A DNA stretch of 15,399 nt from an uncultured Prevotellaceae bacterium (lineage in GTDB: Bacteria; Bacteroidota; Bacteroidia; Bacteroidales; Muribaculaceae): positions 1-15,399 of the forward strand of contig CAJLWM010000050.1 of the NCBI GenBank assembly GCA_905210415.1, given 5' to 3'. Position numbers and translations under genes: made by a program. The stretch's first letter is position 1; each line of letters opens with the position of its first letter. The notes beneath the pieces are model-generated. The model was given only the letters and a program-made list of their open reading frames with translations, had not been told where the DNA came from and made no database searches. Below are positions 24 through 14,879 of this stretch, piece by piece.

Positions 24-33
24 CTTATTTTTG

Positions 34-54
34 GGGACATTTACTGAATGTCCC
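34..54 (-). promoter_or_regulatory. Leader hairpin just upstream of the leftward start codon
   Basis: GGGACATT and AATGTCCC form a perfect 8-bp stem around a 5-base loop. It ends about 10 bases upstream of the ATG at 23, where it could hide or present the ribosome-binding region of the leftward mRNA. It has no T-run on either strand, so it does not look like a terminator. No known riboswitch or leader family is recognised. Confidence 0.45.
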
Positions 55-161
55 TGGTTAGAAACGCCCAAAGACAACCGGGAAAAACCGGATGAAAGCC
101 TAATACTGCACATAGTTATAAGCGCAAAAGTCCAACAGCGCCAACAATAGATTCACCAAGA

Positions 162-284: not shown

Positions 285-316
285 AAATGCTGTTCTGTAA
301 AGCCTTCCTGCGGATG

Positions 317-372
317 GTATATACAAACGACGAGGCTCGCACAGTGCGGGCCTCGTCATTTTCCTTATATAC
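317..372 (-). terminator. Strong hairpin terminator downstream of waaA
   Basis: Bases 329-341 pair with 345-357 (GACGAGGC with GCCTCGTC, one T-G pair, then CGCA with TGCG), giving 13 bp around a 3-base loop. An outer 7-bp arm, GTATATA/TATATAC (317-323 and 366-372), could extend it. It lies 30 bases beyond the waaA stop codon. The T-rich tail is better on the plus strand (ATTTTCCTT), so it may work in both directions, shielding the leftward promoter array from waaA read-through. Confidence 0.7.
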
Positions 373-386
373 TTTTCGGAGCCTGA

Positions 387-1622: not shown

Positions 1623-1629
1623 TGCAACA

Positions 1630-2709
1630 TTAATACATATTACACAATTTATGGCACTTTGCGGCTTTCTCGCCCGATTTAAACAGGCTTTGGTCGATAT
1701 ATACCCTCAACGACAACTGTTGCCACAACGCAACGATGTCTTTAGTGACATGCACATTGACGGCAGCCTCAAAATCCACATAACGGTTGCTCACGATATG
1801 TGCATACACATCGGTGCGACTATATGTCTTTGCCTGATAATATGGAGATCCCATATTTAATTCCGCGCCATATTTAATATACAGCGGCATCAGATTGCCA
1901 CCTGCATAAAACGTCTCTCTCACGCCAAGCCAGCGCCACTGCGCACCTGCCTCAACAAGCACACCAGCAGCATTGCGCCAACCTTCGCCGTCGGCGCGGC
2001 ATCGCTGCATCGACACCACCGCTCCAGCCCTTAGGCTAAGGCTATCAAGCGAAGTGGCTTTGCTCAAATCCAAGCCCACCCATGGGTTGAACATAAAATC
2101 ATCGTTCACGCCCTGGTCTTCAGGAGCATTCTTCTGCTTAGCCAAGTGGTTGTATTGCAAGCGTTCGCCTATCTGCAGCACGCCACGTTCGCCAAAGGCA
2201 TATCGGGTGTTAAGGCACGCGTTAAACGCCTCACGCTGTGTCTCGCTCTGCAACTGTCGCCAATCAAGCATCAACTCCACATAGCCGCGTGGCTTCACAT
2301 ATTGCATCAGCACGCCACGCACATTGGGCTGCTGATAGGCAATAGAGTCGCTCCACAAGTATTTTGGTGCTTGCTCCATCAGATAGTTGCGCGAGAACAT
2401 ACCGAAGTTCACACGCCAAGCGTCTTTGCTGTAACGGTAATACAACGTTGGGCACAACTTATAGTCGTGCCAACCGTTGCCCACAGGCTGATTCCACACC
2501 ACGCCGCCGCTTATACGATGCTCGCCGCCAGGCAAAACCACGCCAATCTCAGGCGCCAAGCGTGTGAAGAATATAGTCTGGTCGTTTGATGAGTCGCCCT
2601 CGCGGTTGTCGAGCACGCTTGAGAAATCCACGCTCCACGTGAGTTGCTGAGCCATGCCGCTGGCAAGGGCAAAACAAAATGCCAATAATATTAGCGAAAA
2701 CTTACGCAT
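1630..2709 (-). CDS. Exported beta-rich protein, probably outer-membrane associated, function unknown
   Basis: Not recognised as a named family. Residues 1-20 form a signal peptide (basic MRKF, hydrophobic core, cleavage likely near SGMA-QQ). The remaining ~340 residues alternate polar and hydrophobic residues with many Tyr/Trp ([20 protein letters not shown] and similar), as in outer-membrane beta-barrels or periplasmic beta-sandwiches. No lipobox Cys follows the signal. The start codon sits inside the end of gltX (8-base overlap ATGCGTAA), and waaA begins 7 bases after its stop, so it is probably translated by coupling within one mRNA. Being next to waaA hints at an envelope role but proves nothing. 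The C-terminus (KCHKLCNMY) is not a typical barrel-ending aromatic signature. Confidence 0.8.
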
Positions 2710-4243
2710 TTGCAGTCGAGATTCTTTCCAGACCCTTTTCGATGCGAGCTATAGTTTCTTCTTTACCAAGAAGTTCGGTGATATCAAACATGTGTGGACC
2801 CTTGCATTCACCCACCACCACAAGGCGGAACGCATTCATCACGTTGCCCATGTGATAGCCGTGATCAGTAATCCAACCGAGCACGATGTCTTCAGATGGC
2901 TTTGAAGAGAAATCATCAATGCCACGAAGCACCTCAATGAGTTCCTTCATTATTTGTGGAGTATCTTCCTTCCAACGCTTCTTAACGTCCTTCTCGGCAT
3001 AAGCATCAGGAGCCACAAAGAAGAAGCGTGCTTGATCCCAAAGGTCCTTAACGAAAGTGATACGGCCCTTCACAAGGCTCACCACGTGAGCAAGGAAGTC
3101 ATTGCTATATGATGCCACGTCAATGCCGTGTTCTTTCAGCACTGGCTTAAACATCTCAGCCAATTCTGCATCTGGCTTATTGATAAGGTATTCGTGGTTA
3201 AACCATTTTGCCTTGTCGAAGTCGAAGCGTGCGCCGCTCTTCGAGCAGTGAGCAAACGAGAAGTCCTTGATTAAGTCGTCCATCGAAAGGATTTCGCGGT
3301 CGTCACCAGGATTCCAGCCGAGCAATGCCACGAAATTGACAAGTGCTTCAGGAAGGAAACCAGTTTCACGGAAACCGTCCCATACTTCCTCGCCTTCTTC
3401 ACCCTTATCGTGCCACTCAAGTGGGAACACAGGGAAACCAAGTTTCTTACCGTCGCGCTTGCTCAACTTGCCCTTACCTGTAGGTTTGAGCAACAATGGC
3501 AAGTGTACGAATTGAGGCATAGTATCGGCCCAGCCAAATGCCTCATAAAGAAGCACGTGCAATGGTGCACTTGGCAACCATTCCTCACCGCGTATCACAT
3601 GGCTCACTTCCATCAAGTGGTCGTCTACGATATTAGCCAAGTGGTAGGTAGGCAATTGGTCGGCACTCTTATAAAGCACCTTATCGTCAAGAATCGAAGA
3701 ATTGATAGTCACCTTGCCGCGGATAAGGTCGTCAACCACTACATCGCGGTTTGGTTCAATTTTAAAGCGCACCACGTAAGGAGTGCCAGCGTCGATCAAA
3801 GCTTTTACCTCATCGGCAGGCAACGATAGTGAGTTGCGCATAGAGCCACGAGTAGAAGCATCATATTGGAAGTTTGCCACCTCGGCACGCTTAGCGTTCA
3901 ATTCCTCTGGCGTATCGAATGCTATGTAGGCATTGCCCGACTCGAGCAATTGGTCTACGTGCTTGCGATAGATTTCGCGGCGTTCGCTTTGCTTATATGG
4001 TCCGTAGTTGCCACCTTCGCGCACGCCCTCATCGATGCCGATGCCAAGCCATGCCAATGCTTCATTGATATAATCCTCAGCACCAGGCACAAAACGTGTA
4101 GAATCGGTATCCTCGATACGCAAAATCATATCGCCGCCATTTTGGCGAGCAAACAAATAGTTGTATAATGCAGTGCGCACACCGCCAATGTGCAACGCGC
4201 CTGTTGGCGATGGTGCAAATCTAACTCTTACTCTTCTCTCCAT
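2702..4243 (-). CDS. gltX: Glutamyl-tRNA synthetase
   Basis: Class I aminoacyl-tRNA synthetase that charges tRNA-Glu in the cytoplasm. [13 protein letters not shown] (9-21) holds the HIGH-type motif, RIEDTD (42-47) the Glu-binding loop, and KLSKR (259-263) the KMSKS-type motif. The 513 residues match bacterial GltX length, including the alpha-helical anticodon-binding domain (about 330-513). The [15 protein letters not shown] opening is the family start. It is first in the run with the exported protein and waaA, with a promoter about 45 bases upstream. Whether it also charges tRNA-Gln cannot be told here. Confidence 0.97.
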
Positions 4244-4287
4244 TTTTTATTTTGGTATATCTAAATCTTATTTTTGTAATTATTTTG

Positions 4288-4320
4288 CAAAGATAGTGCA
4301 AATGAGGGAGATAATTACAA
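4288..4320 (-). promoter_or_regulatory. Promoter of gltX operon
   Basis: The minus strand reads TATCTTTG at 4295-4288 (perfect TAnnTTTG), with TTG at 4320-4318 and a 22-base spacer. Transcription would start near 4282, leaving a leader of about 40 bases before the gltX ATG at 4243. Confidence 0.7.
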
Positions 4321-4400
4321 GCATTGCCGTGTTAATTACACCTCAAAGTTGGTCTATCTTGCTCGGTTTGAATCCTTAAAGCCACTGAAGACGCTCAAAT

Positions 4401-5189
4401 TCACTTTAAAATCAACTTTCCAGCCCGCATCTTTTCGCGTAGCAACTGGATGGTGGGCTGATGGGTCTGCTCGGCAGCACAAGGCGTGATGCTTGCAAAG
4501 CCTCGTTGCAACTGATATAGGTCGGCATTAGGATTATCGGCATCGGTGTTTTCAAAACGTCCGGTAATCCAATAATAATCTCTACCAAATGGATCGACAC
4601 GCTTTTCAAACTCTTCCACCCAGCGTCCGCTGGCTGCGCTTGTTATCTTCAAGCCCTTCACGCCACCTTCCACTTTAGGTATGTTTACGTTTAAGCCCAC
4701 ACCATGAGGCAATCCGTTGGCAAGCACATATTCTATCACGCTCTTCATCACTGGCACACAGGCACTGAAATCGGCATCTTCACTAAATTCGCTATAAGAG
4801 AAACCCACCGACGGTATGTCTTGAAACAATCCCTCAAACACCACACCCATGGTGCCCGAATATATCACGCTATTGCCTGCATTGTAGCCATGGTTGATGC
4901 CCGACAGCACAATGTCGGGGCGACGAGGCAGCAAGCAGTTAAACGACAATTTTGCGCAATCTGTTGGCGTGCCGTTCACCTTAATAAGCGTGTAACGGTC
5001 GGTTTTCTCCACCGTGTAGGCACGCAGTGGCTGGTCTATGGTGATGCTCGACGATTTTCCACTCTGATGCTCGGCAGGCGCCACGGCATACACATAACCG
5101 TATTGGCAAGCCACCTCAATGAGTTTCCTCAATCCCTTAGCAAAATATCCATCGTCGTTGCTTATAAATATCAATCTGTCCTTCTCCAT
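4401..5189 (-). CDS. surE: 5'-nucleotidase SurE
   Basis: Metal-dependent phosphatase acting on nucleoside 5'-monophosphates (members may also cleave 3'-nucleotides and short polyphosphate), in the cytoplasm. ISNDDGYFAKGL (9-20) carries the metal ligands Asp12 and Asp13. Ser43 in HQSGKSSS and Asn99 in SGINHGYN complete the set known from the family, and YSGTMGVVFEG (110-120) is the adjoining conserved stretch. The 262 residues match the usual 250-270. It is transcribed alone and leftward, diverging from rlmN across 180 bases. No clear terminator follows it before the gltX promoter region. Confidence 0.95.
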   Translation of the reverse strand: MEKDRLIFISNDDGYFAKGLRKLIEVACQYGYVYAVAPAEHQSGKSSSITIDQPLRAYTVEKTDRYTLIKVNGTPTDCAKLSFNCLLPRRPDIVLSGINHGYNAGNSVIYSGTMGVVFEGLFQDIPSVGFSYSEFSEDADFSACVPVMKSVIEYVLANGLPHGVGLNVNIPKVEGGVKGLKITSAASGRWVEEFEKRVDPFGRDYYWITGRFENTDADNPNADLYQLQRGFASITPCAAEQTHQPTIQLLREKMRAGKLILK

Positions 5190-5212
5190 ATATTCTTTAT
5201 TGTTTCAAACTG

Positions 5213-5245
5213 CAAAAATACTCATTTTTCGTCAATTATCACAAA
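5213..5245 (-). promoter_or_regulatory. Promoter of surE
   Basis: The minus strand reads TATTTTTG at 5220-5213 and TTTG at 5245-5242, separated by 21 bases: a full -33/-7 match to the Bacteroidota consensus. The leader to the surE ATG at 5189 would be about 18 bases. Confidence 0.7.
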
Positions 5246-5354
5246 TCTGCACTCTCGGCTCGGCTCTTTACATCGCAGGTTTTCTCTCACATCTCCACGG
5301 CCCGTATTCACATATTTATTGACTAAACGGTGGGATTATTTCACATAAAATGAT

Positions 5355-5362
5355 TATTTTTG
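5355..5362 (+). promoter_or_regulatory. -7 element of rlmN, very close to its start codon
   Basis: TATTTTTG fits TAnnTTTG and ends only 7 bases before the rlmN ATG at 5370. No TTG sits at the expected -33 position (around 5331-5334). If used, transcription would begin at or next to the ATG and the mRNA would be leaderless or nearly so. Confidence 0.45.
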
Positions 5363-5369
5363 TGCTACT

Positions 5370-6410
5370 ATGGAAGAATCTATCACAACTACAAATAAAA
5401 CTCCCCTCGTGGGAATGTCGCTCAGCCAACTCCAGCAAGTGGTTGCGCAACTCGGCATGCCTCGATTCACCGCCAAGCAATTGGCTGAATGGATATATGT
5501 GCATCGTGCCAAATCGTTCGATGAGATGAACAATATCTCTAAAGCCAACCGCGCACGTCTGCAAGACGCCTATTCGCTTGGCTTGAAAGCCCCTATCAAG
5601 GAGCAACGTAGCGTAGACGGCACCGCAAAATATCTTTTCGGCGTTGGCGACGGCCAAGCAGTGGAGAGCGTATATATCCCCGATGACGACCGCGCCACCC
5701 TGTGCATCTCCAGTCAAAAGGGTTGCCGCATGAATTGCCACTTCTGCATGACTGGCAAGCAAGGATATCACGGCAATCTCACCGCCAATCAGATCATCAA
5801 CCAAGTGCTGAGCGTGCCCGAAAGCGAATCGCTCACCAACGTGGTGTTTATGGGCATGGGCGAACCGATGGACAACCTGCAAGAGGTGATGCAAGCCATC
5901 GAGGTGATGACTGCTCCTTGGGGATTGGCTTGGAGCCCGAAACGCATCACAGTGTCGTCAATCGGTAAAATCAGAGAGCTCACCCAACTCGTGGAGCAAA
6001 CCAACGTGCATATCGCCATAAGCGTACACTCGCCATATCATGCCGAGCGCGCAAGTCTTATGCCAGTAGAAAACGCCTATCCTATCAATAAGGTGATGCG
6101 CATGCTTAGCAATTACGATTTCGCTCACCAACGCCGTCTGTCGCTCGAATACATCATGTTCAACGGCCTCAACGACGATATGGAACATGCACAAGCGCTT
6201 GAGCAACTCATCGATCGCCAACCGATTCGCGTCAATCTCATCCGCTTCCACGCCATTCCGGGCGTCAACCTCAAGACCTCTGACGAGGAGCGTATGGTTC
6301 GCTTCCGCGACTATCTCAATTCGCGTGGCATAATTTGCACCATTCGTCGCAGCCGTGGCGAGGACATCTTCGCCGCTTGCGGCATGCTCGCCGGCAAAAA
6401 CAAGAAGTAA
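5370..6410 (+). CDS. rlmN: Dual-specificity 23S rRNA/tRNA adenine-C2 methyltransferase RlmN
   Basis: Radical-SAM enzyme that methylates C2 of A2503 in 23S rRNA and, in studied homologues, A37 of some tRNAs, tuning translation accuracy and the exit tunnel. The [4Fe-4S] motif CRMNCHFC... is Cys119, Cys123 and Cys126. Cys112 lies at the same distance from the cluster as the catalytic Cys118 of E. coli, and Cys337 in GEDIFAACGMLAG near the C-terminus corresponds to the methyl-carrying Cys355. GMGEPMDN is the SAM-binding GGE-like motif. The 346 residues match the family. The start at 5370 keeps a short N-terminal extension before the conserved GMSLSQLQQ helix, as in other Bacteroidota; Met16 is an alternative start. 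Monocistronic, ending in a terminator shared with the HAD gene. Clear RlmN rather than Cfr-like by context and length. Confidence 0.95.
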   Translation: MEESITTTNKTPLVGMSLSQLQQVVAQLGMPRFTAKQLAEWIYVHRAKSFDEMNNISKANRARLQDAYSLGLKAPIKEQRSVDGTAKYLFGVGDGQAVESVYIPDDDRATLCISSQKGCRMNCHFCMTGKQGYHGNLTANQIINQVLSVPESESLTNVVFMGMGEPMDNLQEVMQAIEVMTAPWGLAWSPKRITVSSIGKIRELTQLVEQTNVHIAISVHSPYHAERASLMPVENAYPINKVMRMLSNYDFAHQRRLSLEYIMFNGLNDDMEHAQALEQLIDRQPIRVNLIRFHAIPGVNLKTSDEERMVRFRDYLNSRGIICTIRRSRGEDIFAACGMLAGKNKK

Positions 6411-6423
6411 CGCTCTAACATAA

Positions 6424-6489
6424 ATCCAATTCGGTCGTTAGAACGTAAATATGAAAAATTTCCCTAAGCTCTAATGCCAGATTGGGATA
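6424..6489. repeat. Inverted pair of a dispersed ~25-bp intergenic repeat
   Basis: Copy 1 (6424-6445) reads CCAATTCGGTCGTTAGA on the plus strand. Copy 2 (6466-6489) carries the same motif inverted, CTAATGCCAGATTGGG. Three further copies lie at 14452-14478, 14616-14643 and 14852-14877. In one orientation the shared core is CCCAATTCGGNCATTAGG. The pair could fold on itself between the rlmN stop and the terminator. Confidence 0.7.
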
Positions 6490-6494
6490 AAAAC

Positions 6495-6538
6495 AATCAA
6501 CCGCAGCGCTGTAGCTTATGCACACGCTGCGGTTGATT
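6495..6538. terminator. Bidirectional terminator between rlmN and the HAD gene
   Basis: AATCAACCGCAGCG (6495-6508) pairs perfectly with CGCTGCGGTTGATT (6525-6538), a 14-bp stem with a 16-base loop. T-runs follow on both strands (TTTT at 6537-6540; GTTTTT on the minus strand at 6494-6489). It ends both convergent transcription units: rlmN from the left and the pdxA-to-HAD run from the right. Confidence 0.9.
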
Positions 6539-6550
6539 TTATAAATATCT

Positions 6551-7261
6551 CTAATCGAGTATTCCGTCGGTGAGGATGTCGCTCAGACGGCTAATGATGC
6601 ATGGGTGCATCTGTGCATCTTCGTCGGCAGTCCAGCCCTTACCTTTTAGCCATTGCACCTTGCAGCCAAGCGATTCGGCTGGCACAATATCCTTGCGATA
6701 GCTGTCGCCCACCACAAGCACCTCTTCTGGCTTCAAGCCCAAAGCCTCAACGCCAAGCGCGAATATCTTTGGGTCGGGTTTGCGAACGCCCACCACAGCA
6801 CTCTCCACGATTGTGCCGAAGTAGCGGCGCACATCAAAGTCGGTGAGCACGCTCTCCACGTTGCCATAGAAATTGCTCACAAGCACCATTGGATAACGAG
6901 CATGCAGAGCCTCAAGCGTTGGACGCGCTTCCTCGATGCTACCCTTTGCAGCCTCATAGCAATAGCGTGCTATCTTCTCGGCATTAGCCTCAATAGCGAA
7001 ATCAGCGGCAAGAATACCTCGAGCCACAAGGTCGCCAAGTTCGATGCGCATCTTTATGAGCAACAAGTCGTAAAAATTGTGGTGTGGCAAGATGTGGCGC
7101 ACTTTGGCAAGTTCGCGCTCTGCCATCACATAACTGTCACGGAATTGCTCCTTCGATACTGGCACGCCAGCCTCTTGGTAGCCATCCCAAATAATCTCGC
7201 TCCAATGCACACCTCGGCTATCGATAGTGCCACCGTAGTCAAATATAATACCTTTTATCAT
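6551..7261 (-). CDS. HAD-superfamily hydrolase, probable phosphatase
   Basis: HAD fold with a helical cap after motif I. Motif I is DYGGT (8-12): nucleophile Asp8 is present, but the usual acid/base Asp two residues later is Gly10. Motif II is Ser129-Asn130, motif III Lys161 in VRKPDP, motif IV GDSYRKD (185-191) with Asp186 and Asp191 for Mg2+. The 236 residues fit a subfamily I HAD. Last gene of the leftward run, 14 bases after the CDP-alcohol phosphatidyltransferase and so probably co-translated with it. In this setting it might remove a phosphate from a lipid head group or from its precursor; this is inference. Substrate is not readable from sequence, and similar proteins are often annotated only as HAD-IA hydrolases. 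Confidence 0.88.
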   Translation of the reverse strand: MIKGIIFDYGGTIDSRGVHWSEIIWDGYQEAGVPVSKEQFRDSYVMAERELAKVRHILPHHNFYDLLLIKMRIELGDLVARGILAADFAIEANAEKIARYCYEAAKGSIEEARPTLEALHARYPMVLVSNFYGNVESVLTDFDVRRYFGTIVESAVVGVRKPDPKIFALGVEALGLKPEEVLVVGDSYRKDIVPAESLGCKVQWLKGKGWTADEDAQMHPCIISRLSDILTDGILD

Positions 7262-7275
7262 AGTGTTTCCTGTTT

Positions 7276-8235
7276 TTATGCTTGATATTCACCAGCCTTA
7301 AGCTCTTCGGTAAATTTCTTGCAGAAGCGTTCGTGCTTGCAGATCATATACACGAGCATAGCATTGAGCACTACCAATTCAAACGCGAAATAGAGCCATG
7401 GCATACGCACGATGATAGACACGAACAATGCTATCACGCGAGTGTTGAACGAAAGCATATTGGTGTACTTCATCAGCGGCTTGCTCTTAGCGCGGAATGC
7501 GTCGCGGAACGATTGTGGAATCGCTGCAGCTGTGCCATAGCGCTCCTTCAATGCCTTGCGCAGACGTTGCATATTTGGTGTGCAAGCCTCTTGCTGTGCA
7601 GTGTAGTTGCGATAGGTCATTGCCACGAGTTTCTTCATTGGAGACTTCCAAGTGAGGCCAGCGTTGTCGCGGTCGAGTTGCTCAGTGCTATCGAGTTCGC
7701 TACCCTCCTCGCCCTTAAGGAAGAACAAGTGGAACTGGCGATAATAGTCGGCCGAAGCAGCTTGTTTGGTATGGCTCAATCCGGCAGTGATGGCAAGCGC
7801 CCAAATAGCCCATTGATTTTCCATAAAGAAAGCGCTCGAATCTATCACGCGGAACACGAGTGTGAAATATATGGCTATAAACCAGAAGTCACCGCTCATA
7901 CCATCGAGGATTCTGCCCAAGCGTGAATATTGCTTGGTCATACGAGCCAATTGGCCATCGGCGCTGTCAAACGAGTTTGCCCACACGAGCAAAAGCATAC
8001 CCACAAAGTTGAGCCACATCTGATTGGTCTCGTATGGGTAAAACAGCAGACCGCCAGCCACACCGAGGAATATCGAGGCGATAGTTATCACATTTGGTGT
8101 AATGCCCAGTTTAGCAGCCAACAACGCCCAGAAAAATCCTATCGGACGGTAAAACAATAGGTCGATAGTCTCCTCTGTATCCATTGATTTCAGAGAGCCT
8201 TTATAAGCCTCCTTAAATTCTTTAAAACTTCGCAT
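7276..8235 (-). CDS. CDP-alcohol phosphatidyltransferase family protein, head group unknown
   Basis: Integral membrane enzyme that displaces CMP from a CDP-linked substrate to form a phosphodiester, as in phospholipid synthesis. The signature D-x2-D-G-x2-A-R-x8-G-x3-D is complete: Asp90, Asp93, Gly94, Arg98, Gly107, Asp111. The final Asp, normally 4 residues after Asp111, is instead at 116 (DGMSGD), one residue late. Hydrophobic segments lie near 34-66, 73-88, 117-133, 140-157 and 265-298. A hydrophilic stretch of about 100 residues (160-262) is inserted before the last membrane part, making the protein (319) longer than the usual ~200. Neighbours: a nucleotidyltransferase that could make the CDP-alcohol, an ATP-grasp protein and a HAD hydrolase. 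Best reading: transfer of a non-standard polar head such as an inositol- or polyol-phosphate. Phosphatidylserine or PGP synthase is less likely given the insert and context. Confidence 0.85.
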   Translation of the reverse strand: MRSFKEFKEAYKGSLKSMDTEETIDLLFYRPIGFFWALLAAKLGITPNVITIASIFLGVAGGLLFYPYETNQMWLNFVGMLLLVWANSFDSADGQLARMTKQYSRLGRILDGMSGDFWFIAIYFTLVFRVIDSSAFFMENQWAIWALAITAGLSHTKQAASADYYRQFHLFFLKGEEGSELDSTEQLDRDNAGLTWKSPMKKLVAMTYRNYTAQQEACTPNMQRLRKALKERYGTAAAIPQSFRDAFRAKSKPLMKYTNMLSFNTRVIALFVSIIVRMPWLYFAFELVVLNAMLVYMICKHERFCKKFTEELKAGEYQA

Positions 8236-8314
8236 GTATTTTTTCTTTTTTCTTAATAATTTGTCTCATATCACTTGCTACAAACAGCGACAATGAGCCC
8301 ATTACACATCTCTG

Positions 8315-8331
8315 CGATGTGCTTATACGAC
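8315..8331. other. Small hairpin between ATP-grasp and transferase genes
   Basis: CACATC and GATGTG form a 6-bp stem with a 5-base loop in the 102-base gap 8236-8337, the longest gap in this leftward run. No T-run follows, so a processing or stability site is more likely than a terminator. No TAnnTTTG promoter is visible in the gap. Confidence 0.3.
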
Positions 8332-8337
8332 ACAAAA

Positions 8338-9213
8338 TCAAGGATTTTCCTCGATGTGCTTCTTCACAGCAGCGATAATGGCTTTGGCGATGAATGGAGC
8401 GGCTTCGTTGCGGCATGGCGCAAAGCTTGGCCAGTCGTTGAAGTCAATAATGCGCATATAGCCATCCTTGTCTACGATGCAATCGCCACCATATACCACC
8501 ACATTGAGTTCTTCGGCAGCGCGTTGGCAGATTTCCTTCATCTTCTCGATGTCGAAATGAAATCCCTTCGACTTGCCATTGATAGCCTCTGCTCCATACT
8601 TGCTATGACCCTCATCATATGGGTAGAACCAATGGAAGAATGATTGATCCTTCACGCCATAAAATTTGATAAGGTCGCCAGGCAAGTGCTTGTTAATCAC
8701 CGCGCGCTTAATGCCGCGATAGAAATATTCTTGAAGCACCTCTTGAGCTTCCTCTGGGTGACGCACATAGCTCACGTCCTCTTTGTGCATAGCATGAAAA
8801 TCGCCACGCTTAATCCAGCAGCTTTGGAAACCATATTTTTTCATCAAGCCCTTCACGGCCTCGTCGGTATTCACTATCAGACTCTCTGGATATGGAATAT
8901 CGTTGCCAATCAAGATGCGAGTCATGCGCTCACGGGTGCAATTCTCAATGCCGTAGCCTGAGTTTATCACCAGTCGACCCTCATCTTCATAACGCTGCAA
9001 ACGGGCGATCGACGCCTGCTCGCGGCACATGTTTATTATCACACGCTCTTCCACGCCATCACTGTTGAATTGGTCTTCGCTATACACATTCACTATGCAT
9101 CCGCGCTTACGCAATTGGTCGGCAGCAGCATTGAAGATTGCAGTATCGTTGCCAATATGGTTAGGCGAATACGCCCCAGCACGCATAATACCTGCTATTG
9201 TTATTTCAGCCAT
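8338..9213 (-). CDS. ATP-grasp family protein, ligase-like, substrate unknown
   Basis: Looks like an ATP-grasp enzyme of the RimK/D-Ala-D-Ala-ligase type, which activates a carboxylate as acyl-phosphate and joins it to an amine or thiol. Evidence: a pre-ATP-grasp alpha/beta region (1-90), a lid entry RERMTRILIGNDIPYPESLIV (94-114), an ATP-binding Lys135 in WIKRGD, and the metal-binding end YGGDCIVDKDG...IIDFNDWPSF (241-264), with Asp244, Asp257 and Asn259. This last stretch is the strongest signal. It lies between a nucleotidyltransferase and a CDP-alcohol phosphatidyltransferase on one strand, so it may modify an aminated or carboxylated head group; that is inference. It is not a recognised purine, biotin or peptidoglycan enzyme. 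291 residues. Confidence 0.75.
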   Translation of the reverse strand: MAEITIAGIMRAGAYSPNHIGNDTAIFNAAADQLRKRGCIVNVYSEDQFNSDGVEERVIINMCREQASIARLQRYEDEGRLVINSGYGIENCTRERMTRILIGNDIPYPESLIVNTDEAVKGLMKKYGFQSCWIKRGDFHAMHKEDVSYVRHPEEAQEVLQEYFYRGIKRAVINKHLPGDLIKFYGVKDQSFFHWFYPYDEGHSKYGAEAINGKSKGFHFDIEKMKEICQRAAEELNVVVYGGDCIVDKDGYMRIIDFNDWPSFAPCRNEAAPFIAKAIIAAVKKHIEENP

Positions 9214-9271
9214 AGTTCAAAAAATATACACTTTTTATTATTGCTATACGATTCTTATTCTCAGTTCTCGC

Positions 9272-9979
9272 TTATGGTTCGCTGATAAACTTTTCAGCCA
9301 CCTCAATATCTCCAGCATGGTCCACATCAATAATCTTATCTATTGAGTAGGCTTTCAGCTTCAAGCCGTTTGCCACCAAGGCACGTTGGAAATTGCGCAT
9401 ACGCGACACACCTGTGTCGATGCAGTTTTTCAGCACTGCCCACGACGCATCGGTGAGCGAATACACGCCTCCAGAGATATATTTTGCGCCCTCGTAAGCC
9501 TCGTCGCGGAAAGTGCGTACTTCCATATTCTCGTCAACGTCGACATACAATGGCTTTTCGTCTTCGATAAACGGAGTCACCGCCATCATGCCATCGTGCT
9601 CGCTGTCGGCCTCAAAAGCTGCCACATATTTAGCAAAATCAGGCTCTTTGAATATCGTATCCACGGTAGTCAAGCAGAATTTGCCTGGCTTCATCACGCG
9701 TGTTAACTCATAAAAGCTGTGCATCGAACTTGGAGTGGATTTCACAACGATGTTAAGCGGAACAGGCAATGTGGCTTTGAGCTCTTGCAGATAATTCTGC
9801 ACCTCTGTCATTTCCTCGTTCACAATCACACTCACGCTCTCTGCGTTGCAGCGCACAAATATGTTTATCAGGCGACCAATCATTGGCTCACCACATAGTT
9901 CCACCAATGGTTTTGGTTTCTTTACGCCTTCTTGCGCCAAACGGCTACCTTCGCCAGCAGCAATAATCGCATAATTCAT
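9272..9979 (-). CDS. NTP transferase (MobA/GlmU-like fold), probable cytidylyltransferase
   Basis: Single-domain nucleotidyltransferase of 235 residues. IIAAGEGSRL (5-14) is the nucleotide-binding loop, KKPKPLVELCG (20-30) the following Lys-Pro signature, Asp107 in TTVDT the likely metal ligand, and DVDHAGD (218-224) the C-terminal metal/substrate motif. Members transfer NMP to a sugar- or alcohol-phosphate. With a CDP-alcohol phosphatidyltransferase two genes downstream, CTP plus an alcohol phosphate giving a CDP-alcohol is the simplest idea. In archaea, a related nucleotidyltransferase and a CDP-alcohol transferase are fused to make inositol phosphodiesters, a useful precedent. A sugar-1-phosphate nucleotidyltransferase is the main alternative. 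It starts 54 bases after pdxA, with no promoter visible between. Confidence 0.85.
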   Translation of the reverse strand: MNYAIIAAGEGSRLAQEGVKKPKPLVELCGEPMIGRLINIFVRCNAESVSVIVNEEMTEVQNYLQELKATLPVPLNIVVKSTPSSMHSFYELTRVMKPGKFCLTTVDTIFKEPDFAKYVAAFEADSEHDGMMAVTPFIEDEKPLYVDVDENMEVRTFRDEAYEGAKYISGGVYSLTDASWAVLKNCIDTGVSRMRNFQRALVANGLKLKAYSIDKIIDVDHAGDIEVAEKFISEP

Positions 9980-10033
9980 AGTTTCGGAATTTTTTATTGG
10001 TTAAAGTCGGGGTTAAATAATCTCGTGTTTAAA

Positions 10034-11134
10034 TTACTCTTCCTCCACCTTGGTGAGGTCGAGAACTTCCTTGTCGCCGCTCTTGTCGAAATACAGACGT
10101 CGCAAAGGATTTTGCGTAGCCTCATCGTAGTTGCAACGGTTGCGGTAGATGTCAATCGCAGCGTAGATGGCTTGACGCATGCTTTGCTCATTAGCTTCGT
10201 TCTTGCCGGCGATGTCGTAACCAGTACCGTGGTCAGGGCTGGTGCGCACATATTGCAGTCCGGCTGTGAAGTTCACGCCGTTTTCCATAGCGATGGTCTT
10301 AAATGGAGCCAAACCTTGGTCGTGATACATAGCCAGCACGCCATCGAAGTGACGATATTGCTCGTTGCCGAAAAATCCGTCGGCTGCATATGGGCCAAAT
10401 GCCACCACCTTGTTTTCCACAGCCTCGTTGATTGCTGGGATTATCACCTCTTGCTCTTCCTTGCCGAGCAGACCGCCGTCGCCAGCATGAGGATTCAAGG
10501 CAAGCACCGCAATGCGTGGGCGAACGATGCCGAAATCATATTTCAACGATTGATTGAATGCATACAACTTTTCAAGCACAGCTTCCTTGGTGATATGTTC
10601 AGCAATGTTTGTCACAGGCACATGGGTAGTGACCAATGCCACGCGTATGTTTTCGCAGAACAGCACCATCAGGGCCTTATCGCCGTCGCCTATGCTTGCT
10701 TCAAGATATTCTGTGTGTCCGGGGAATGTGAAATGATCGCTTTGGATGCTCTTTTTGTTGATTGGCGCTGTCACAAGCACATCTATAAAACCTTGCTTGA
10801 GGTCGGTCACCGCTCTTTCAAGCGCTTGAAATGCCGCTTCACCGGCAGCCTCACTGCTCACTCCGAGCTCCACTTTCACTTCGTCGTTCGACACTTCCAC
10901 GAGATTGTTCACTCCGTCCTTAATGTCGCTGCTGTTTCGCACCACGTTCATCGCCACTGGCTGTAAATCAAGTGCTTTTCTATGATAACTCGCTGTTTTT
11001 GCCGAGCCATACACAACAGGCGTAAACATTTCTGTCATTTGTGGGTTCTGAAGGGCCTTCAATATCACCTCATAACCTATGCCGTTGGTATCCCCTTGGG
11101 TGATGCCAACGCGTATCAATTTTTCATTAGCCAT
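10034..11134 (-). CDS. pdxA: 4-hydroxythreonine-4-phosphate dehydrogenase
   Basis: Oxidises 4-phosphohydroxy-L-threonine with NAD+ in the DXP-dependent pathway of pyridoxal 5'-phosphate synthesis. GITQGDTNGIGYE (10-22) is the phosphate-binding start in its Bacteroidota form (elsewhere often GDPAGIGPE). The metal ligands known from E. coli match His171, His216 (NPHAGDGG) and His271 (YHDQG). GHTE (139-142) and RTSPDHGTGYDIAG (297-310) complete the active site. A C-terminal tail of about 30 charged residues makes it 366 long against about 330 in E. coli. First gene of the leftward run with the lipid head-group genes. PLP synthesis has no obvious link to them, so the grouping may be incidental. 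Confidence 0.95.
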   Translation of the reverse strand: MANEKLIRVGITQGDTNGIGYEVILKALQNPQMTEMFTPVVYGSAKTASYHRKALDLQPVAMNVVRNSSDIKDGVNNLVEVSNDEVKVELGVSSEAAGEAAFQALERAVTDLKQGFIDVLVTAPINKKSIQSDHFTFPGHTEYLEASIGDGDKALMVLFCENIRVALVTTHVPVTNIAEHITKEAVLEKLYAFNQSLKYDFGIVRPRIAVLALNPHAGDGGLLGKEEQEVIIPAINEAVENKVVAFGPYAADGFFGNEQYRHFDGVLAMYHDQGLAPFKTIAMENGVNFTAGLQYVRTSPDHGTGYDIAGKNEANEQSMRQAIYAAIDIYRNRCNYDEATQNPLRRLYFDKSGDKEVLDLTKVEEE

Positions 11135-11179
11135 TAATATTCAAAATATTATATTGCGCAGACGCTCACAGGAAATACC

Positions 11180-11198
11180 GCTTCGCTGCAGCGCAAGC
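11180..11198. other. GC-rich hairpin in the pdxA leader
   Basis: GCTT...AAGC flanks the 10-base palindrome CGCTGCAGCG, a stem with one bulged base. It lies about 45 bases upstream of the pdxA start. The leftward promoter for pdxA was not found with confidence; the nearest -7 candidate (AATATTTG, around 11210-11220 on the minus strand) has one mismatch and no -33 box. Confidence 0.3.
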
Positions 11199-11277
11199 CG
11201 CGCTTCTCTACAAATATTTTGCTAAGTTACGCATTTTTCCGCTATTAATCAATAGCCTACACATCTGTGATTTTCAT

Positions 11278-11285
11278 TATCTTTG
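11278..11285 (+). promoter_or_regulatory. -7 element upstream of the PH-domain gene
   Basis: TATCTTTG fits TAnnTTTG exactly. Transcription would begin near 11291, about 30 bases before the ATG at 11322. No TTG is seen at the -33 position. Confidence 0.55.
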
Positions 11286-11321
11286 CATAAATTGATGTAT
11301 CATAAAACGAGAATTATCTAA

Positions 11322-11747
11322 ATGGTCTATCGTTCAAAAGTTGATTTATGGTTGGTGGCAGTGGTATATGGTGTCACTGCATTATCAATGTTGCCCTGTC
11401 TGACTGACGGTGCAAATCTGGCGATAGCGGCAATCTTCGCAGCCATAATTGCGTTAGAGACCTGCGTATTGTTTGGAATAAAATACCAAATCACCGACAA
11501 TTGGCTTGAGGTGAACTGCTGCGGATTGGGCAAAGAGCGATATGACTTACGCAAAATCACATCGGTGCGCGCCAGTCGCAGCATCCTCTCTGCCCCGGCT
11601 GCGTCGCTCGACAGAATAGAATTGAGATTCGGCAAGCAGACTGTGCTGGTTTCGCCCAAACGCAAATCGGAATTTCTGGCACACCTGAGCCAAGCCGCAG
11701 GAAAGGATATCGGCGGCACCGTATTCACAGAAAATAGTGTCCGTTAA
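11322..11747 (+). CDS. Small membrane protein with a PH-like (YyaB-type) domain
   Basis: Residues 8-27 and 32-53 form two hydrophobic helices separated by CLTDGAN. They are followed by a ~70-residue beta-rich domain with the pattern YQIT...L.V...GLG...YDLRKITSVR, then SLDRIELRFG, then VLVSPKRKSEFLAHL (109-123). This matches the bacterial PH-like domain family typified by B. subtilis YyaB. These domains are usually found on the cytoplasmic side of the membrane and their role is mostly unknown. 141 residues, apparently transcribed alone, diverging from pdxA. An 8-codon frame (11295-11321) ends immediately before its start codon. Function not assigned. Confidence 0.8.
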   Translation: MVYRSKVDLWLVAVVYGVTALSMLPCLTDGANLAIAAIFAAIIALETCVLFGIKYQITDNWLEVNCCGLGKERYDLRKITSVRASRSILSAPAASLDRIELRFGKQTVLVSPKRKSEFLAHLSQAAGKDIGGTVFTENSVR

Positions 11748-11794
11748 TCGAAGAAAAACATCGAAAAAACTCTCACATAAGCAAATATTTTTCT

Positions 11795-11802
11795 TAACTT
11801 TG
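11795..11802 (+). promoter_or_regulatory. -7 element of the BY-kinase gene, long leader
   Basis: TAACTTTG fits TAnnTTTG. A start near 11808 would leave a leader of about 150 bases before the ATG at 11957. No clear -33 box is seen. The leader contains a 19-codon frame (ATG 11867, stop 11924-11926). Confidence 0.5.
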
Positions 11803-11956
11803 TAGACAGTACAACGCATAGCTACTATCACTTCAGCAACAGCCGCATTGATAGCCTCTGTGCATTATGGAGACACATAAATTTTACTTTACACAAACAG
11901 TTTTTCCGCCAAGAAATACTATTTGATAATTTTTCAAAAAATCATATCACCATACT

Positions 11957-14383
11957 ATGGTAGAACGTTCAGAAGAAAAAAAATCGAGAGCGAAAAAAGA
12001 TAGTCGCAGTGCTATATCAATCAGAAGTTACTTCACCGCATGCCTTCACAACTGGTATTGGTTTGTGCTTTCGGTACTCATCGTGGGTTGCCTTGCCTAT
12101 CTCTACGGTAAATCACGCCCTCAGCAGTATTCGGCTTCGGCATTAATCCTCATCAAGACCAACGTCGACGAGGCTTCGGGCGAAGCACAGGTACTAAAAG
12201 ACCTCTCTTCGTCGCGCAATCGCCGCTCATTGACCAATGAGATATATGTGCTGAAATCATCAACCATCATGGACGAGGTGGTGAGCAAGCTCAACCTCAA
12301 TGTGAATTACTTCTGCCGAATGTATCTGCGCGATGTGAACATCTATTACACCACGCCTGTGATATTCACTCCGCTCAAAGAGGTCACCACGCCATTCACC
12401 ATCCACTTCCGCACCCACAACGATAAGGAAATCGATTTCCGCATCGCTGGCGGCAAAGACGGCCGCTGGAAGCGCGCAAGCTTCGGCAGCAAGGTGAATA
12501 CCGACTTCGGCCCTATTGCCATCACCAAGGGACCGAACTTTAGCGACGACTACGACGATAACGAACTGTTTGCCACTGTATCTACCGTGCACAGCACCGC
12601 TTCGCAACTGATTGGCGGACTCAATATCGTGAAGGACCAAAAAGACGCCAATGTATTGCGCCTCACACTCATCACACAGAACCCCGACCTTAGCGCCACC
12701 ACTCTCAATGCGCTTATCGCGGCTTACAACCAATACACCATCGACGACAAAAACCGCGTGGCTCGCAACACCGAGTCGTTTATCGTAGACCGCATCAGCG
12801 CGCTGTCGAAAGACCTTGGCGGCATCGACTCTCAAATCGAGCACCTGAAGATTATCAATAGATACCCTACCATTGAGTCGGCTGCCGAAGCTTATACACA
12901 ACAAAGCTCCACTTCGCAGAGCGACCTCGCCAACGTGGATATGCAAATCTCTTTGGTGAACTATGTGCGCGACTTCATCAGCCGCTCACAGCTTCACGAT
13001 CTTATACCTTCCAACTCGGGCATTTCTGACATCGGCATCAACGGATTGATTGACCAATACAACCAGCTCTGCCTCAACTATCAGAAACTCTCGGCTACTA
13101 CTGGTAAGGACAACCCTGTGATGGCCGACCTCGACAAGCAGATGCGCGCCCTTCGCGCCAACCTCATCCGCTCTATCGACGGATTCATCAGCACCCTGCG
13201 CATCAAGCAATCGCAAGTGCGCAGCCAAGGCATCAAGGCAAGCAGCATGATGTCTACAGTGCCTACACAAGAAAAAGAAATCACCGACATCACACGTCAA
13301 CAGAAAATCAAGGAGCAACTCTACCTCTATCTGCTCAACAAGCGTGAAGAGAATGCGCTGCAGGTGGCTGTCACCGAACCAAACGCCAAGGTGCTTGAAA
13401 GCGCCACCAGCGGTTGGCTCATCTCGCCTATGGAGCAACAGATTCTATTCTTCGGCCTTATCATCGGATTTATAATCCCTGCTGTGGTGATATTCCTGAT
13501 ATTCTGGATCTACTCGCTCGACACCCTCATCCACAGCCGCTACGACGTGGAGAACAACTGCGACATACCGCTCCTTGGCGAAATACCAAGCAAACGCAAA
13601 GACCAAAAAGACGAGGAACTTATCGTCACCGAAACGGGCACCGACCGCATCACCGAGGCATTCCGCATTATCCGCGGCAACCTCGACTATGTGCTCCCTA
13701 AAAAAGCTGGCGAGGGCTACATCATTCAGTTCACCTCTACTATGGCTGGCGAGGGTAAGAGCTTCAACGCCGCCAACCTTGCGCTCACTTGCGCTATCAA
13801 TGGCAAACGTGTGCTCGCCATCGACATGGACATGCGCAAAGGTACGTTCTCTAAATACTTTGGCATCCACGATATCACTCACGGCCTCAGCTCTTATCTC
13901 TCTGGCCGCCTCGAAAACGTAGATACGATGATTTACACCTCTGAAAACAACAAGAACCTCGACATCATCCCACTGGGTGTGATTCCTCCAAACCCTACAA
14001 GCCTGATTATGGGCGAGCGTCTGAAGGAATTGCTTGAGACGATGAAGAAGCGCTACGACTATATCATCCTCGACACCGTGCCTTATGCACTTGTTGCCGA
14101 CGCGTCGCTTATCAACCGCTATGCCGACCTCACTATCTACGTAATTCGTGATGCCAAGATCGACAAGCGCTACCTCGAAGACCTCGAGAAGATGTATCAC
14201 AGCGAAAAGATAAAGAACATGACCATCCTGCTCGGCGACGTGAAGGCCGACGCAAAACGCTACGCCTACGGCTATGGTTACGGCTACGGTTATGGATATG
14301 GATACGGATATGGTTATGGCTACGGTTACGGCGAAGAAGAAACCAAGAAAAAGCTTCGCCTATTCCACCGCAAACGCCATTAA
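11957..14383 (+). CDS. Polysaccharide co-polymerase / tyrosine autokinase (Wzc-like BY-kinase)
   Basis: Inner-membrane protein governing chain length and export of a capsular or exopolysaccharide by cycles of Tyr phosphorylation. Order: TM1 (32-50), a periplasmic Wzz-type domain with a coiled-coil stretch (about 250-460), TM2 (495-520), then the cytoplasmic kinase. EAFRIIR (567-573) fits the E-x2-R-x2-R oligomer motif; Walker A is AGEGKS (597-602) with Lys601; Walker A' has Asp623 and Asp625 (AIDMDMRKG); Walker B is IILDTVPY with Asp706. The C-terminal phosphorylation tail is Tyr-Ala followed by 11 Tyr-Gly repeats (12 Tyr, bases 14261-14332), then an acidic-basic end. 808 residues, single-polypeptide form. 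No wza, flippase or glycosyltransferase genes follow, so it stands apart from a full capsule locus in this window. A terminator follows the stop. Confidence 0.95.
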   Translation: MVERSEEKKSRAKKDSRSAISIRSYFTACLHNWYWFVLSVLIVGCLAYLYGKSRPQQYSASALILIKTNVDEASGEAQVLKDLSSSRNRRSLTNEIYVLKSSTIMDEVVSKLNLNVNYFCRMYLRDVNIYYTTPVIFTPLKEVTTPFTIHFRTHNDKEIDFRIAGGKDGRWKRASFGSKVNTDFGPIAITKGPNFSDDYDDNELFATVSTVHSTASQLIGGLNIVKDQKDANVLRLTLITQNPDLSATTLNALIAAYNQYTIDDKNRVARNTESFIVDRISALSKDLGGIDSQIEHLKIINRYPTIESAAEAYTQQSSTSQSDLANVDMQISLVNYVRDFISRSQLHDLIPSNSGISDIGINGLIDQYNQLCLNYQKLSATTGKDNPVMADLDKQMRALRANLIRSIDGFISTLRIKQSQVRSQGIKASSMMSTVPTQEKEITDITRQQKIKEQLYLYLLNKREENALQVAVTEPNAKVLESATSGWLISPMEQQILFFGLIIGFIIPAVVIFLIFWIYSLDTLIHSRYDVENNCDIPLLGEIPSKRKDQKDEELIVTETGTDRITEAFRIIRGNLDYVLPKKAGEGYIIQFTSTMAGEGKSFNAANLALTCAINGKRVLAIDMDMRKGTFSKYFGIHDITHGLSSYLSGRLENVDTMIYTSENNKNLDIIPLGVIPPNPTSLIMGERLKELLETMKKRYDYIILDTVPYALVADASLINRYADLTIYVIRDAKIDKRYLEDLEKMYHSEKIKNMTILLGDVKADAKRYAYGYGYGYGYGYGYGYGYGYGYGEEETKKKLRLFHRKRH
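14261..14332 (+). repeat. In-frame Tyr-Gly coding repeat in the BY-kinase tail
   Basis: Twelve consecutive 6-base units encode Tyr-Ala once and Tyr-Gly eleven times. TAC/TAT and GGC/GGT/GGA are mixed, so the DNA is an imperfect repeat. Unit gain or loss keeps the frame and would change the number of phosphorylatable Tyr. Confidence 0.9.
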
Positions 14384-14408
14384 ACCACAACACCCTATAA
14401 ATGCACAC

Positions 14409-14441
14409 GGGATTGCATGCCAAGCATTGCAATCCCTTTTT
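14409..14441 (+). terminator. Intrinsic terminator of the BY-kinase gene
   Basis: GGGATTGCA (14409-14417) pairs with TGCAATCCC (14428-14436); the inner ATGC/GCAT can pair further. TTTTT follows at 14437-14441. It lies 26 bases after the stop codon. Confidence 0.9.
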
Positions 14442-14451
14442 ATTTGCCCTT

Positions 14452-14643
14452 TAACCCAATTCGGGCATTAGGGCTTGGTAGGATTTCGGAGTTTTAGAAG
14501 TGCAGATTTTGGTTGCTTTTTTAATGAGTAATAGCAAGCTATTGCGAGTTAAAAACAAGCAAAAGATGCCTTATAAAAGCCGAAAGACACCAAGTAGTAT
14601 TAAAATTTTCACATCTACGGCCTAATGACCGATTTGGGGTTAA
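14452..14643. repeat. Inverted pair of the dispersed repeat enclosing a structured spacer
   Basis: Copy 3 (14452-14478, CCCAATTCGGGCATTAGG) and copy 4 (14616-14643, inverted, CCTAATGACCGATTTGGGG) bound about 190 bases. Inside, 14513-14562 can fold: TTGCTTTTTTAA with TTAAAAACAAGCAA, then AATAGC-AA-GCTATT (14530-14543). No open frame of note is present. This accounts for most of the 333-base gene-free stretch 14384-14716. It may be a small non-autonomous mobile element or a REP-like element; neither is proven. Confidence 0.5.
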
Positions 14644-14673
14644 ACGCCGTAGCGCAATAAACTTCGTGAATTA

Positions 14674-14705
14674 TTGCTCATTTTAAAAATTATTTATTAA
14701 TTTTG
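14674..14705 (+). promoter_or_regulatory. Promoter of tRNA-Leu
   Basis: TTG (14674-14676) and TAATTTTG (14698-14705) are separated by 21 bases, a full -33/-7 match. The start would fall about 5 bases before the mature tRNA 5' end. Confidence 0.75.
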
Positions 14706-14716
14706 CATTCGCTAAA

Positions 14717-14800
14717 GCCCAGGTGGCGGAATGGTAGACGCGCTCGTTTCAGGTGCGAGTGTTGAGAGACGTGCAGGTTCGAGTCCTGTTCTGGGCACCA
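14717..14800 (+). tRNA. tRNA-Leu (anticodon CAG)
   Basis: Complete cloverleaf with encoded CCA (14798-14800). The acceptor stem pairs GCCCAGG with TCTGGGC (one G-U). The anticodon stem pairs 14743-14747 with 14755-14759, and the 7-base loop TTCAGGT puts CAG (14750-14752) at positions 34-36, reading CUG codons. A long variable arm follows (about 14760-14772), as expected for class II tRNA-Leu, then the T-arm GCAGG-TTCGAGT-CCTGT. It has its own promoter and terminator, so it is a single-gene transcript. Confidence 0.97.
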
Positions 14801-14805
14801 TCCAC

Positions 14806-14840
14806 AAAGAGAATGTAACCGCAGTTACATTCTCTTTTTT
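14806..14840 (+). terminator. Intrinsic terminator of tRNA-Leu
   Basis: AAAGAGAATGTAAC (14806-14819) pairs perfectly with GTTACATTCTCTTT (14824-14837) around CGCA, followed by more T residues. It begins 5 bases after the CCA end. Confidence 0.95.
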
Positions 14841-14844
14841 ATAC

Positions 14845-14877
14845 CCCAATTCAAGCCCTAATGATCGAATTGGGTTA
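14845..14877. repeat. Fifth copy of the dispersed repeat, with its own hairpin
   Basis: Bases 14852-14877 are nearly the exact reverse complement of copy 3: CAAGCCCTAATG, two changed bases, then CGAATTGGGTTA. In addition CCCAATTC (14845-14852) pairs with GAATTGGG (14867-14874) in a perfect 8-bp stem. It follows directly after the tRNA terminator. Confidence 0.75.
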
Positions 14878-14879
14878 TA

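Follow-up and report, generated by a model that had tools for sequence, protein, structure and literature searches.

Which product is made by four closely spaced genes in a 15.4-kb stretch of DNA from an uncultured Prevotellaceae bacterium (contig CAJLWM010000050.1, positions 1 to 15,399; hereafter the window)? The genes encode an NTP transferase, an ATP-grasp protein, a CDP-alcohol transferase and a HAD hydrolase, and the original prediction, made from the sequence alone, took them for an undescribed lipid head-group pathway, perhaps the second phosphatidylinositol (PI) route proposed for Prevotella. A lipid head-group pathway, the second PI route of Prevotella and B. vulgatus (Heaver et al., PMC9246714), is very probably what they encode; the word 'undescribed', however, has to be given up, because three of the four genes form the putative cluster already named in that paper. 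What is new is the ATP-grasp gene as a constant member. We put a probability of about 0.6 on the reading that the window holds the alternative, Kennedy-type inositol-lipid pathway of Bacteroidota with an additional HAD enzyme and an additional kinase resembling ITPK (inositol 1,3,4-trisphosphate 5/6-kinase), the kinase acting in the core route. The features concerned are listed here in window positions.

10034..11134, minus strand: pdxA (4-hydroxythreonine-4-phosphate dehydrogenase; TIGR00557, 364.8 bits, cut-off 290), conserved upstream neighbour and probable first gene of the unit
9272..9979, minus strand: NTP transferase, 235 aa, probable inositol-phosphate cytidylyltransferase (Pfam NTP_transf_3, above cut-off)
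8338..9213, minus strand: ATP-grasp protein, 291 aa, probable inositol or inositol-phosphate kinase, ITPK-like (AlphaFold2 (AF2) fold, profile match, DxNxxPSF)
7276..8235, minus strand: CDP-alcohol transferase, 319 aa, probably of the kind that uses a CDP-head-group donor (PF01066, 41.7 bits, cut-off 22)
6551..7261, minus strand: HAD family IA hydrolase, 236 aa, probable phosphatase (PF00702, 68.7 bits, cut-off 26.4)
6490..6550, minus strand: probable transcription terminator, a strong hairpin followed by a T-rich tail, in the space where the HAD and rlmN genes converge

A conserved gene group and its coupling to myo-inositol-phosphate synthase

At least 533 confirmed stretches of GTDB species genomes encode relatives of the ATP-grasp protein, and the counts per locus given here refer to the best 80 of these, which were picked via the ATP-grasp gene and some of which end at contig edges. 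The CDP-alcohol transferase adjoins the ATP-grasp gene in all 80 loci, while the NTP transferase is present in 62, the HAD gene in 56 and pdxA in 56; in one group of loci (L006, L010 and L012, for example) the ATP-grasp and transferase genes lie about 7-9 kb away from the NTP transferase. The gene for myo-inositol-phosphate synthase (MIPS) was found inside the locus in 47 of the 80 by tblastn and in 46 by hidden Markov model, and in 37 of the latter it comes next to HAD on the downstream side, in the same orientation and within 2.5 kb. MIPS scored above the cut-off in each of the 50 genomes searched, which were drawn from the same loci (six of the matches are partial, that in G032 covering only 72 positions). 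The original prediction had held inositol to be just one option for the head group, and these numbers make the case for it considerably stronger. Because the ATP-grasp gene defined the selection, the 80 loci cannot by themselves give the frequency of the other genes in its absence.

Among 149 Bacteroidales genomes, the ATP-grasp gene was detected in 18 and MIPS in 23, with MIPS present in all 18 carriers versus 5 of the 131 other genomes (Fisher, 4.8e-19). Strong matches to the CDP-alcohol transferase (E<1e-50, a cut-off of our own choosing) were obtained in 21 genomes and to the NTP transferase (E<1e-60) in 17. The ATP-grasp gene was present in 17 of the former and in 16 of the latter, in which the NTP transferase had been found independently of it. 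The exception, G089, carries the NTP transferase and part of the CDP-alcohol transferase in one open reading frame (ORF), with the transferase catalytic motif missing and no match to MIPS; the remaining transferase genomes without ATP-grasp (G155, G171 and G192) represent other head-group types. Conversely, two ATP-grasp carriers had no strong NTP transferase match, G187, where the contig ends, and G189. No ATP-grasp match was obtained in the remaining five genomes with MIPS. Of the MIPS regions in these five, three were retrieved: G109 and G155 show the PIP-synthase arrangement (MIPS, PgpA, GtrA, PIP synthase, PAP2), and no PIP-synthase-type gene was seen beside MIPS in the 14 kb read from G069.

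A sample of 296 genomes from across the phylum, which shares G018 and G109 with the first one, gave strong ATP-grasp matches in 12; another 12 with weak matches only were left out of the carriers. MIPS was present in 11 of the strong carriers versus 48 of 296 overall (p 7.5e-9), and all 12 carry the NTP transferase, ATP-grasp, CDP-alcohol transferase and HAD genes together. Conservation of the gene group is far beyond chance. The original prediction had proposed measuring co-occurrence across Bacteroidota and whether an inositol-phosphate synthase joins the group; the members indeed travel together, and the synthase joins them.

Across divergent loci the recurrent order is NTP transferase, ATP-grasp, CDP-alcohol transferase, (LPG_synthase_TM), HAD, MIPS. 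The NTP transferase and ATP-grasp proteins are fused in a single ORF in two genomes (L120 and L125; 513 and 525 aa), and LPG_synthase_TM and HAD form one ORF in L117. Two loci depart from the general picture. In L112 (genome G189; cluster at L112:134-4968) the ATP-grasp gene lies within an inositol-lipid cluster of the PIP-synthase type, with PAP2, PIP-synthase-like, GtrA and MIPS genes, no NTP transferase or HAD, and PgpA elsewhere in the genome; L149 (G388) carries a complete module, yet its genome gave no match to MIPS. Taken together, the ATP-grasp gene seems to be a core member of the cluster, and one that was apparently overlooked before.

Seven of the relatives (L150-L155 and L158; e.g. 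L154:5031-11647) combine the module with MlaE-MlaF-MCE genes, a class-III aminotransferase and a Gfo/Idh/MocA oxidoreductase that weakly resembles inositol-2-dehydrogenase, and four of them (L151, L152, L153 and L155) have two tandem ATP-grasp genes. This composition suggests an amino-inositol lipid and its transport.

As regards the window itself, the four leftward genes originally described between 6551 and 9979 proved to be closely spaced, with gaps of 58 bp (NTP transferase/ATP-grasp), 102 bp (ATP-grasp/CDP-alcohol transferase) and 14 bp (transferase/HAD), and to end at a strong hairpin (-29.6 kcal/mol, z -6.6; none of 200 shuffles equally good), on the far side of which rlmN converges on HAD. 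A consensus scan of positions 6380-11350 (sigma-70 type for promoters), which misses this hairpin, gave chance levels of both promoter-like sites (9 versus 6.8 ± 2.5 by chance) and terminator-like sites (4 versus 5.2 ± 2.1), including a promoter-like site at 9264-9237 in the NTP transferase/ATP-grasp gap and a weak terminator-like site at 8355-8337 at the ATP-grasp stop. A Bacteroidota-type promoter pattern likewise yielded nothing above chance. The earlier statement that no promoter or terminator separates the genes is thus uncontradicted, while the absence of such sites is unproved; co-transcription of the group is likely, though not proved. Since pdxA is on the same strand, 54 bp upstream of the NTP transferase gene, and recurs in the relatives at the frequency given above, it is probably the fifth member of the unit. 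In agreement with the original prediction, no MIPS gene was recognised within the 15.4 kb, and neither were PgpA, GtrA or PAP2 genes. Elsewhere in the window, we noted a Wzc-like tyrosine kinase with a long repeated YG tail followed by a basic end (14255-14383) and, between kdtA and gltX, an ORF of 359 aa (1630-2709) whose start looks signal-like and for which Pfam gave no match at 0.01.

The ATP-grasp protein and its partner enzymes

The ATP-grasp member had been taken to suggest an amide-linked or otherwise ligated head group. The window protein has no Pfam match, and its label comes from weak NCBIfam matches (MptN at 1.4e-7, LysX and RimK, all far below cut-off) and from the AF2 model, which has an ATP-grasp fold (predicted local distance difference test score (pLDDT) 89.4; predicted template modelling score 0.87). 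When a 15-row profile of the family (A6) was compared to the PDB, the matches were Entamoeba ITPK (1.3e-9), PsnB (2.3e-5) and Arabidopsis ITPK4 (7.8e-5), with human ITPK1 (0.0015) and RimK-type proteins (about 0.005) at lower ranks; a 35-row profile (A9) gave PsnB (1.2e-7), ITPK (1.4e-7), ITPK4 (7.6e-7), ITPK1 (2.2e-4) and RimK-type proteins (0.0018).

In these alignments the family segment GdlvKfY is paired with SRIFKFY of ITPK4, whereas PsnB (GDDVRVY) has an arginine in place of the lysine. At a further position the ITPKs carry D-x-N, as does the ATP-grasp family, versus ELN in PsnB, while the RimK-type proteins of the same genomes have both ExN and R (4 of 6 loci readable). In ITPK, the DxN and lysine residues bind metal and substrate phosphates, and PPIP5K shares them. 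The full DxNxxPSF motif was found in all 108 unique sequences of the family, and K183 is invariant in 35 rows; with a loose pattern, 112 of 114 ORFs have K at this place and two have R. The family also has an N-terminal motif of its own, R-x(4)-SPN-x(4)-D. The RimK-type signature (E-x-N with Arg) is absent, PF08443 did not match the window protein, and the NCBIfam RimK-family model scored 26.2 bits (cut-off 143). Since the ITPK-type lysine and D-x-N occupy positions at which the ligases that were checked have R and E-x-N, the motifs favour a kinase, and the protein is probably an inositol or inositol-phosphate kinase and not a ligase; the ligated head group is accordingly not favoured.

Several results weigh against this assignment. 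The window protein taken alone is closer to the ligase (PsnB 0.0028 versus ITPK 0.69), and ligases score equal or better in some plain similarity searches. The fold fails to separate the two activities, RimK, LysX, Ddl, ITPK1 and PPIP5K2 lying within about 2 Z units; all 50 Foldseek rows shown for the model are ligases, and the ITPK/PPIP5K rows appear in the VIA list. Moreover, the window protein gave no match to the ITPK family PF05770, whose cut-off was reached in 0 of 29 genomes. Pfam searches with 35 family members returned RimK (4), YheCD (2), Ins134_P3_kin (2) and several unrelated families at 0.004-0.1, which is noise level. Because PF05770 and PF08443 both match weakly, we do not class the protein as a member of the ITPK family, but propose that it acts like one.

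For the NTP transferase, the best NCBIfam match was the bifunctional inositol-phosphate cytidylyltransferase (1.6e-11), although at 43.9 bits it remains far below the cut-off of 580 of that model (NF041135), which describes the bifunctional archaeal protein. The AF2 model (pLDDT 94.8) placed the T. maritima inositol-1-phosphate CTP transferase (4jd0) first in Foldseek (2.5e-16, next 3.6e-15). In VIA, inositol-1-phosphate CTP transferase and sugar nucleotidyltransferases tie (25.5 versus 26.2), and the sequence profile ranks heptose and sugar enzymes ahead of the inositol-phosphate cytidylyltransferase (IPCT; 2.9e-9 versus 2.3e-5). R13, K23 and D107 are invariant in 18 rows and, matched by motif position, are likely the equivalents of three active-site residues printed as R16, K26 and D112 in PMC12275187; a strict G-x-G-x-R...P-K pattern occurs in 80 of 91 wider ORFs. 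Both the predicted fold and these residues fit a probable inositol-phosphate cytidylyltransferase.

The CDP-alcohol transferase of the window matches AF2299 and CDP-diacylglycerol-type PI/PIP synthases when taken alone, and the 18-row profile A3 matches AF2299 together with the Kennedy enzymes CPT1 and CEPT1 (choline/ethanolamine phosphotransferases). In the window protein, the signature D-x2-DG-x2-AR-x8-G-x3-D-x3-D is incomplete: the first three Asp, the AR and the Gly are kept, and the fourth Asp is replaced. Gly followed by D/N takes its place in 108 of 111 transferase ORFs (two others keep Asp and one is unreadable). All 23 inositol-type proteins read have this Gly, while the three PIP-synthase-type proteins read retain Asp, and the BT_1523-type PIP synthase model NF052561 scores 34.2 bits against the 350 required.

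Four fetched loci carry transferase relatives with neither ATP-grasp nor HAD. In L130 (5650-9704), L131 (5840-8858) and L133 (4359-9230) the neighbour is glycerol-3-phosphate cytidylyltransferase-like, with GlsA-like acyltransferase genes nearby and, in L130 and L133, SDR and LPG_synthase_TM genes; these loci may make phosphoglycerol lipids, for example phosphoglycerol dihydroceramide, by way of CDP-glycerol. L132 (4670-8552) keeps the rlmN-pdxA-transferase setting with a cytidylyltransferase of the IspD/ribitol-phosphate type. The presence of the transferase without kinase or HAD in these glycerol- and IspD-type loci suggests that a soluble CDP-alcohol is the head-group donor of this enzyme, the kinase and HAD being additions tied to inositol.

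Two further variants were observed. L129 (587-3144) has a 425-aa ORF that joins the NTP transferase to a part of the transferase that lacks the catalytic motif; next come LPG_synthase_TM and a HAD match that is both short and weak. Its genome has no ATP-grasp or MIPS match, and it is perhaps a decayed module. L121 (529-6489) and L122 (1-5811) carry an extra cassette upstream of the inositol module, which probably serves a different head group. It comprises two ORFs of about 380 aa that begin alike, an aminotransferase, an NTP transferase, a LysE-type protein and a paralogue of the transferase in which the canonical fourth Asp is kept, the family assignments coming from L122.

All 86 HAD proteins read have D[YF]G[GA]T as motif I (DYGGT in the window), so that the second Asp of the canonical DxD is absent. 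This Asp is common in HAD phosphatases, and some phosphatases, such as YihX, have Gly in its place.

A proposed pathway and its alternatives

From what was directly established, namely the genes, the way they are coupled among themselves and, in relatives, to MIPS, two predicted folds and the motifs, we infer the following route, including its enzymatic steps, its lipid product and the core role of the kinase. MIPS, presumably encoded elsewhere in the window's organism, would make D-myo-inositol-3-phosphate. The ITPK-like ATP-grasp kinase would phosphorylate inositol or inositol-3-phosphate, and the NTP transferase would convert inositol phosphate to CDP-inositol. The membrane CDP-alcohol transferase would then pass (phospho)inositol phosphate from CDP to diacylglycerol or dihydroceramide, and HAD would strip a phosphate, either from inositol phosphate before the kinase step or from the phosphorylated lipid after the transfer. 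The expected product would be PI or PI-ceramide.

Direct use of the MIPS product by the NTP transferase would need no kinase, as in the glycerol-type loci, so that kinase and HAD may together relocate the phosphate. In this variant, which we put forward only tentatively, the phosphate set by MIPS would be at D-3; the kinase, whose substrate would be inositol-3-phosphate or else inositol released by HAD, would add one at D-1; the latter would be activated by CTP and passed to the lipid; and HAD would remove the one at D-3. Relocation would explain why kinase and HAD occur in inositol-type modules and neither in the four glycerol- and IspD-type loci. The fusions, of kinase to NTP transferase and, in P. 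veroralis, of transferase to HAD (PMC9246714), fit a kinase that acts before the NTP transferase and a HAD that acts after the transferase. If relocation does take place, the lipid would have the D-1 linkage of eukaryotic PI even though it is built from CDP-inositol, and the kinase would represent a bacterial branch close to ITPK that serves membrane-lipid synthesis.

The main rival is that the ATP-grasp kinase would only salvage free inositol from diet or phytate, converting it to inositol phosphate in parallel to MIPS, with the NTP transferase and CDP-alcohol transferase, working on inositol phosphate supplied by MIPS, as the core of the route, as in Heaver et al. Both exceptional loci speak for it and against a core role for the kinase: salvage to inositol phosphate would also help the PIP-synthase cluster of L112, and G388 retains its module although MIPS was not matched there. 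However, the ATP-grasp gene accompanies strong NTP transferase matches in all but one genome of the 149, and its carriers nearly always have MIPS, which is more constant than an optional step should be, so that we consider salvage unlikely. A different role for the same protein, as a ligase joining an amino acid, or some other acid, to the inositol head group with the rest of the pathway unchanged, appears less probable still. It would agree with the ATP-grasp fold, with the weak similarity of the window protein to ligases, with the near-tie of PsnB and ITPK in one profile search and with the database name 'Glutathione synthase/RimK-type ligase' that some family members bear; in addition, the aminotransferase and inositol-2-dehydrogenase-like enzyme of some relatives could yield an amino-inositol for ligation. 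Nevertheless, the lysine and the D-x-N found in every unique sequence differ from the R and ExN of the ligases shown, the genes recognised beside the window cluster include no aminotransferase and no other amine-forming gene, and the fusion to the NTP transferase is at least as easily reconciled with an upstream kinase.

That the product is no lipid at all, but part of a capsule or a soluble inositol phosphodiester comparable to the di-myo-inositol phosphate of hyperthermophiles, seems highly improbable. The NTP transferase does resemble archaeal and Thermotoga inositol-phosphate cytidylyltransferases used for such solutes; against this, the transferase profile matches lipid enzymes of the Kennedy pathway, many modules carry LPG_synthase_TM, MlaE/MlaF/MCE genes for lipid transport are present in 8 of the 12 loci L148-L159, and PI-dihydroceramide is produced by species that have the published cluster (PMC9246714).

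Comparison with known systems

The inositol-lipid pathway with an additional kinase is thus best compared with the 'alternative inositol-lipid cluster' of B. vulgatus and Prevotella, put forward as putative by Heaver et al. in 2022 and composed of NTP transferase (RS13095), CDP-alcohol transferase (RS13105) and HAD (RS13115). PI-dihydroceramide was detected in B. vulgatus and P. veroralis, both described as being without the other pathway (PMC9246714). The two clusters share these three genes, a nearby MIPS in relatives and an LPG-synthase-like neighbour, and the gaps between the published locus tags leave room where relatives carry ATP-grasp and LPG_synthase_TM; judged by the tag gap, RS13100 is a candidate for the ATP-grasp gene, although no locus or protein under the name B. 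vulgatus was among the matches listed. The main text of that paper has 0 matches for 'ATP-grasp', and the gene may still be listed in its supplements. The published scheme, drawn in silico, has three enzymes, with HAD proposed as an AUR1-like PI-ceramide synthase (PMC9246714). We did not adopt this last suggestion, the window HAD being a 236-aa HAD-IA protein. A search of titles and the beginnings of abstracts found no paper that ties an ATP-grasp gene to this inositol-lipid route, nor a later test of the route, which a 2023 review calls 'not yet fully characterized' (PMC10191378).

A constant, previously unnamed kinase-like gene alters the reaction scheme of the three-enzyme proposal and calls into question the 'RimK-type ligase' database names. 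If it is indeed a kinase, an ITPK-like enzyme would serve membrane-lipid synthesis in bacteria. The inositol lipids of B. thetaiotaomicron affect its capsule, resistance to antimicrobial peptides and colonisation of the host (PMC9246714).

With the ITPK kinases (PDB 1z2n, 7pup, 2q7d) the window family shares the ATP-grasp fold, D-x-N with a PSF/PSY-like tail and the K-F-Y segment; it differs in being below the Pfam cut-off, in being bacterial and located in a lipid operon, and in its N-terminal motif. The NTP transferase has the fold and likely the R/K/D residues of inositol-1-phosphate cytidylyltransferases (T. maritima 4JD0 and archaeal IPCT-DIPPS), but is only 17-18% identical to them, is separate from the transferase and is fused to ATP-grasp in two genomes. 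The BT_1522-1526 PIP-synthase route of B. thetaiotaomicron likewise starts from MIPS and ends in PI or PI-ceramide (PMC9246714), whereas the window transferase lies far below the BT_1523 model and is without the fourth Asp, and the PgpA, GtrA and PAP2 genes were not recognised in the window. The CpgD/CPG2 ceramide pathway of Caulobacter also employs an IPCT-like cytidylyltransferase to provide a CDP head-group donor for a sphingolipid, but its substrate is phosphoglycerate and its kinase, CpgB, phosphorylates ceramide (PMC12275187).

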